A DNA stretch of 19,003 nt from Candidatus Iainarchaeum sp. (GTDB lineage: Archaea > B1Sed10-29 > WALL01 > JAGHAM01). The notes beneath the pieces are model-generated. The model worked only from the letters and a program-made list of their open reading frames with translations. It was not told where the DNA came from and searched no databases. A program made the position numbers and the translations under genes. Shown piece by piece: positions 2,896 to 3,202 of this stretch (within the stretch, counting starts at the first letter, position 1; each line of letters starts with the position of its first letter). The stretch is taken from positions 1 to 19,003 of the forward strand of contig JAGHAM010000038.1 in NCBI GenBank assembly GCA_021161465.1, given 5' to 3'.

Positions 2896-2956
2896 GTAGT
2901 TTGATATAATAGAACCACGCAGGGGTGCCGGAGCGGTCAAACGGGACGGACTCAAG

Positions 2957-3006
2957 GGGCGAACTATTTTCGCTTCGCGAAAAACATTCACAAAAATGCC
3001 TGTGAT
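2957..3006 (+). other. tRNA intron 1, anticodon loop 37/38 (50 nt)
   Basis: The bulge-helix-bulge is drawn as follows. The outer helix is the anticodon stem. The central four pairs are CUCA (2951-2954) with UGUG (3001-3004), with one U-U mismatch. The 3-nt bulges are AG^G (2955-2957) and AU^A (3005-3007). The inner helix is GGCG (2958-2961) with UGCC (2997-3000). Cutting after the second bulge nucleotide gives exactly 37/38, the canonical archaeal site. The intron also holds a perfect 7-bp hairpin at 2967-2983 (TTTTCGC, TTC loop, GCGAAAA). Confidence 0.85.
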
Positions 3007-3038
3007 ATCCGTTGACTTAGTGTCTACGCGAGTTCAAA

Positions 3039-3148
3039 ATAAGGGGCACCTACGGTTCCCCCTTATAAGCCCCTTCCCTTAATGGGATGGAAAGCAGTAA
3101 GGGCGTTATGTGTTCCTTATAAGCCCCCCTAAACCTTTGGGGTGAGAA
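3039..3148 (+). other. tRNA intron 2, T-loop 59/60 (110 nt)
   Basis: The outer helix is the T stem (3028-3032 with 3150-3154). The central four pairs are UUCA (3033-3036) with UGAG (3143-3146), one of them G-U. The bulges are AA^A (3037-3039) and AA^U (3147-3149). Splicing between 59 and 60 restores TTCAAAT. There is no continuous inner helix. Instead local hairpins flank the site: UAAGGGG (3040-3046) with CCCCUUA (3059-3065), and CCCC (3126-3129) with GGGG (3139-3142). The intron contains an imperfect internal duplication around TTATAAGCCCC. Confidence 0.8.
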
Positions 3149-3202
3149 TCTCGCCCCCTGCACCTCATTTTCTGTAAAATGACATATATTTAATTCTAAC
3201 GT

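Follow-up and report, generated by a model that had tools for sequence, protein, structure and literature searches.

The DNA analysed here (the window, 19,003 nucleotides of Candidatus Iainarchaeum sp., contig JAGHAM010000038.1) is contig 39 of a genome assembly of 976,286 bases in 40 contigs that is 93% complete, hereafter G000. On its forward strand the window carries a class II tRNA-Leu(CAA) gene that is interrupted twice, once in the anticodon loop and once in the T-loop. Its parts are as follows:

2919..2956, + strand: exon 1 of tRNA-Leu(CAA), with the acceptor 5' strand, the D arm, the 5' strand of the anticodon stem and the loop to G37; the anticodon CAA is at 2953-2955.
2957..3006, + strand: intron 1, 50 nt, at the canonical position 37/38; its central-helix partner TGTG (3001-3004) forms 3 of 4 pairs with tRNA positions 32-35.
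3007..3038, + strand: exon 2, with A38, the 3' strand of the anticodon stem, the class II variable arm, the 5' strand of the T stem and T-loop positions 54-59 (TTCAAA, 3033-3038).
3039..3148, + strand: intron 2, 110 nt, at T-loop position 59/60, a member of intron family B (see below); two tandem units start near 3040 and 3098.
3143..3149, + strand: 3' part of the bulge-helix-bulge (BHB) motif of intron 2; TGAG (3143-3146) pairs with T54-A57 (3033-3036), the bulge is AA^T and the cut falls at 3148/3149.
3149..3162, + strand: exon 3, with T60, the 3' strand of the T stem, the acceptor 3' strand and the discriminator A73; CCA is not encoded.

When 2919-2956, 3007-3038 and 3149-3162 are joined, the result is a tRNA of 84 nt in which every stem is paired (GCAGGGG.TG.CCGG.AGCGGTCAA.ACGG.G.ACGGA.CTCAAGA.TCCGT.TGACTTAGTGTCTAC.GCGAG.TTCAAAT.CTCGC.CCCCTGC.A) and which RNAfold folds into a cloverleaf at -33.6 kcal/mol. 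The earlier note on this DNA, made from its letters alone, had described the double interruption, and its exon and intron coordinates are right to the base. It had also warned that standard finders might miss the gene; both that we used did, as ARAGORN (without its intron option, or with anticodon introns allowed) and Rfam at its gathering score reported no tRNA in the window. An intron-aware finder (a script allowing introns in the D-loop, anticodon loop and T-loop) gave the locus a score of 50; the genome read backwards produced six hits, with a maximum of 42. A separate intact tRNA-Leu(CAA) elsewhere, together with the lack of a spliced product from this locus, would, according to the same note, have marked this one as a pseudogene, and we found no second copy in the genome: the locus is its single match. 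We regard it as highly probable that the locus is functional and is the sole tRNA-Leu(CAA) gene found in this genome, a judgement that covers our best explanation as a whole, including the spread of intron families described below.

The interrupted T-loop was thought by the earlier note to be unusual in such a genome; it turned out to be the rule. A plain Rfam search of G000 returned 8 tRNAs, or 6 under stricter filters, the lowest count among 61 genomes compared (the same comparison gave 29 for G001, a genome of the same family). Matches to a T-arm pattern were fewer in G000 than in a reversed control, an observation that led to the discovery of the interrupted T-loops. The intron-aware search, which covered all bases of the assembly, then yielded 34 tRNA genes at a score of at least 44. 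Introns occupy T-loop position 59/60 in 32 of these (13-321 nt), position 37/38 in 25 (19-231 nt) and the D-loop in 10; only Leu(TAA) and Pro(TGG) lack a T-loop intron. About ten further tRNA genes were recognized by ARAGORN or by eye and were not scored by the finder, so that the total of about 44 is approximate. In this unscored set, T-loop introns interrupt Lys(CTT), Arg(GCG), the Pro-like gene of contig C34, and Ser(TGA) and Thr genes at contig ends; the Asn and Tyr genes have intact T-loops and an anticodon intron, and the initiator Met gene has an intact T-loop. The set also includes a tRNA-Cys with a short T-loop insert, and the initiator tRNA-Met has a short D-arm insert of ∼13-15 nt (C10:763-845 and C30:181-265). 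Isoleucine tRNA genes with the anticodon TAT, which to our knowledge are uncommon in archaea, occur at C40:52793-53222 and in another genome, G009 (L316), with T-loop introns of 321 and 50 nt, respectively.

BLAST comparison among the 67 introns of G000 separated three main groups. Two of them, families A and B, account for 26 of the 32 T-loop introns. Family A comprises 13 T-loop introns plus the anticodon intron of tRNA-His, and hence occurs at both 59/60 and 37/38; family B comprises 13 T-loop introns, including that of the window; family C comprises four anticodon and two D-loop introns. Unlike families A and C, family B was not shown to occur at several tRNA positions. The window intron is nearly identical to the T-loop introns of Lys(CTT) (98.9% over 90 nt) and Leu(CAG) (96.7%), and is closely similar to those of Arg(TCG) (94%) and Arg(CCT) (89%). 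Family B introns are 60-67, 108-110 or 165 nt long, corresponding to one, two or three repeated units. The 37/38 intron of Leu(CAA) has no related sequence elsewhere in the genome (E <= 0.01). Outside tRNA genes we found only three intron copies; they lie at C21:8156-8206, C28:223-251 and C35:69848-69924, where they directly adjoin Ala(GGC), Ala(CGC) and Glu(CTC) on the 3' side, beyond the mature tRNA.

Membership of the inserts in repeat families is what would be expected if destructive elements had broken the Leu(CAA) gene and put it out of use. The stems of this sole Leu(CAA) gene are nevertheless intact and the end of the insert forms a BHB; at least 32 tRNA genes would moreover share the same fate, which would leave too few tRNAs for translation. 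We therefore consider a pseudogene very improbable.

At the T-loop site of Leu(CAA) the BHB is strict, with 4 of 4 central pairs, a 3-nt 3' bulge and the bulge sequences AA^A and AA^T, and the T arm together with its intron folds better than shuffled sequences (z = -3.0). The same arrangement recurs through the genome: 13 of the 32 T-loop introns have an end that pairs with all four of positions 54-57 when the 3' bulge is 3 nt, and 12 do so when it is 4 nt, against 2% of random 4-mers. In tRNA-Gln(CTG), TTCG replaces TTCA and the intron end shows a matching change, with CGAA in place of TGRA. Anticodon introns in the expected register have 4 of 4 pairs in 11 of 25 cases and at least 3 in 24 of 25.

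The phylum of G000 is represented by only 19 genomes in the comparison set. In G001, the nearest available relative, T-loops are uninterrupted in all 24 modelled tRNAs, 17 of which are orthologues (matched by anticodon) of genes interrupted in G000. The Leu(CAA) genes of G001, G002, G005 and G007 have a 37/38 intron and an intact T-loop, and those of G006, G014 and G032 are intron-free. Since the G001 orthologues, its Leu(CAA) included, have intact T-loops, G000 appears to have acquired its T-loop introns in bulk, probably through the kind of intron transposition that has been proposed for Thermoproteales. The family B sequence pattern occurs 11 times in G000 and not once in 80 other genomes. 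The core of family A occurs 12 times in G000; its single occurrence in G001 lies in the anticodon intron of tRNA-Asp and suggests that the family came from the anticodon loop. The T stems of G000 and G001 show 15 two-sided differences that keep the pairing, and 14 of these fall in genes that are interrupted in G000.

A second genome with many interrupted T-loops is G012, from another order of the same class, where 22 of 32 genes have introns at 59/60. These belong to families of its own, one of which resembles family A over ∼30 nt, and 19 of the 22 have the strict motif with a 3-nt bulge. Two independent waves of insertion, or one older stock of introns that was reactivated, would fit these data. 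G009 (219 kb covered) has mostly D-loop and anticodon introns, with a T-loop intron in one of six genes. In G012, in addition, the anticodon intron of tRNA-Pro(CGG) (L267) encloses a further sequence that resembles tRNA-Pro and has a T-loop start of its own.

Contigs C2, C5, C20, C25, C32 and C34 of G000 end inside or beside tRNA introns, and the repeated intron families probably break this assembly. Such a disturbance could be taken to mean that the assembler, or the binning, stitched repeats into tRNA genes. Against this, the inserts occupy an identical position in tRNA genes that are scattered across many contigs and have unique flanking sequence, and G012, a separate assembly, shows inserts at 59/60 with families of its own. 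An artefact is, in our view, barely credible.

Both splicing enzymes have one gene each in G000. The sole EndA detected is a single-domain-type protein of 170 residues with both Pfam domains. Among full-length matches of similar size the alpha4 enzyme of M. jannaschii (1a79) is the best, and the G000 protein aligns to it end to end with no added loop; RtcB is likewise encoded once. EndA is single-copy in 12 other genomes. The oligomeric state of the G000 enzyme is thus predicted to be alpha4-like. The only other PF01974 match in the genome (11.9 bits, inside a TruD-like frame) was considered as a second subunit and rejected as a chance match. We found no EndA of relaxed type in G000, whether (alpha-beta)2 or epsilon2, as a second gene, a fused multi-unit protein or a protein with the crenarchaeal or ARMAN loop, although a very divergent subunit could escape such a search. 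The endonuclease subunit for relaxed motifs, for which the earlier note had suggested a search, did not appear. According to reviews (PMC4033280, PMC4090602), enzymes of alpha4 type cut canonical BHB motifs only, and relaxed enzymes accompany intron-rich tRNA sets. That many T-loops have the strict motif would make T-loop introns compatible with an alpha4-like EndA, but the 4-nt bulges would still lack an explanation.

The best explanation of these observations, in our view, is the following. In the Leu(CAA) precursor, EndA should cut out both BHB introns and RtcB should join the exons to give the 84-nt tRNA. The 59/60 intron would be a copy of a dispersed family which, together with a second family, was inserted at TTCRAA|T of nearly every tRNA gene after the split from the nearest available relative. 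TTC(A/G) at positions 54-57 is common to these tRNAs, so any intron with a 3' end close to TGRA would form a BHB there, and the T-loop would offer a shared, splice-neutral landing site. Introns of the anticodon loop are the likely source, and the intron DNA was probably transposed, being copied either by way of an RNA intermediate or when tRNA genes recombined with one another. In this account the anatomy of the gene, the families of copies, their preference for one site, their scarcity outside tRNA genes and the empty sites of G001 are observed, while the splicing, the enzymes at work and the way of copying are deduced.

As an alternative to intron-specific transposition through RNA (reverse splicing followed by reverse transcription), tRNA genes could have passed the introns to one another by ectopic recombination or gene conversion. 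Copies are found only in or beside tRNA genes, the tandem duplications within introns are typical of DNA recombination, and in G012 the introns that interrupt the D-loops of Leu(TAA) and Leu(TAG) (L302 and L278) hold copies of the tRNA's own 5' exon. One family, however, occupies both 37/38 (in His) and 59/60, and another both 37/38 and the D-loop, where the flanking exons differ, and the T stems of recipient genes differ from each other despite near-identical introns. We see recombination as a serious possibility, if not quite the one we would choose.

Another proposal concerns why the introns persist. They might be kept because they protect the 3' half of the tRNA, where integrases usually attach, from integrating viruses and plasmids (an idea of Randau and Soll, cited in PMC3293823), in which case their spread was selected and not merely selfish. 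In almost every tRNA gene the insert does divide the T arm, which belongs to the usual attachment region; neutral or selfish introns would show a family-like spread just as readily, and we think selection for protection unlikely.

Several points weigh against the transposition of spliceable introns proposed above. The earlier note had both junctions fitting BHB geometry: this holds for the T-loop site and is slightly generous for the anticodon site of Leu(CAA), where the register is canonical and a U33-U mismatch leaves 3 of 4 central pairs. At T-loop sites across the genome, the 12 with a 4-nt 3' bulge are joined by 7 that fit neither register, and an alpha4-type enzyme would be expected to cut all of these poorly. 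Splicing at Leu(CAA), and the enzymes that would act there, are predicted from sequence and not observed. The finder needs full T and anticodon stems, so that broken copies would escape it; that no broken pairs were seen is in part a product of this requirement and carries no information. Finally, no mobilising enzyme was identified.

Introns at 59/60, multiple introns and intron transposition are already known from Thermoproteales and other archaea (PMC4090602, PMC4033280). The earlier note's statement that multiple and T-loop introns are chiefly a feature of Thermoproteales was too narrow: they are also known from Crenarchaeota and Nanoarchaeota (PMC4090602), Caldiarchaeum (PMC3293823) and Asgard archaea, in which 92-95% of tRNA genes are interrupted (PMC11291895). 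In Thermoproteales, a recent gain was likewise deduced from comparisons of related species (Fujishima et al. 2010; Sugahara et al. 2008; both as presented in PMC4033280 and PMC4090602), and G000 shares with such families the near-identical introns in different tRNA genes, the occurrence of families A and C at several positions, and the empty orthologous sites. It differs in that Thermoproteales use many positions and a heteromeric relaxed endonuclease, whereas G000 has 59/60 introns in 32 of 34 genes, introns reaching ∼320 nt through repeated units, and an alpha4-like EndA as the sole one detected.

Intron-saturated tRNA sets are also described for Asgard archaea (PMC11291895). As in G000, more than 90% of tRNA genes in Atabeyarchaeia and Freyarchaeia are interrupted, more than half with several introns that are often non-canonical, and a standard finder missed some. 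Those lineages belong to a different phylum, and the parts of that paper open to us report neither repeated families nor a single dominant T-loop site. ARMAN (Micrarchaeum; PMC4033280, PMC12397907) is, like G000, a small archaeon with introns at non-canonical tRNA positions; its EndA, of epsilon2 type, consists of three units (395 residues in 4fz2) and has an ARMAN-specific loop, unlike the single-unit EndA of G000. The literature on tRNA introns of DPANN, Micrarchaeota, Micrarchaeum and Diapherotrites yielded no earlier report, many subscription papers being outside the search. As far as the literature searched shows, what is new is that two repeated intron families nearly saturate a single T-loop position, in a phylum of small genomes with an alpha4-like EndA.

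Between 3822 and 17006 the window also carries genes for cysteinyl-tRNA synthetase (CysRS), a sugar kinase, a fructose-bisphosphatase-like protein, triosephosphate isomerase, aldehyde dehydrogenase, glycogen synthase, GH57 and a glycosyltransferase, of which glycogen synthase and GH57 were checked and the others were read from their translations; the cluster appears to serve carbohydrate and storage-polysaccharide metabolism. The synteny of Leu(CAA) with CysRS is not conserved at the loci examined in relatives. The DPANN-like gene content described by the earlier note is plausible, with the reservation that the best named match of CysRS is a Micrarchaeota metagenome-assembled genome at only 51%.

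On a broader reading, which we offer tentatively as a little short of an even bet, small archaea of one phylum carry mobile BHB introns that specialise in a single landing site, the tRNA T-loop, and that swept nearly all tRNA genes at least twice (in G000 and G012) despite the alpha4-like character of the sole EndA found. A relaxed enzyme would then be no precondition for non-canonical invasion, because the T-loop itself supplies half of the canonical motif. More than 80% of the tRNAs in a good genome bin can go unseen by standard searches, with consequences for quality standards and for studies of decoding. The observations challenge the rule that alpha4 endonucleases accompany single canonical introns, and the nearly saturated gain of introns at a single tRNA position, set against orthologues that lack them in a genome of the same family, makes intron copying in archaea testable.
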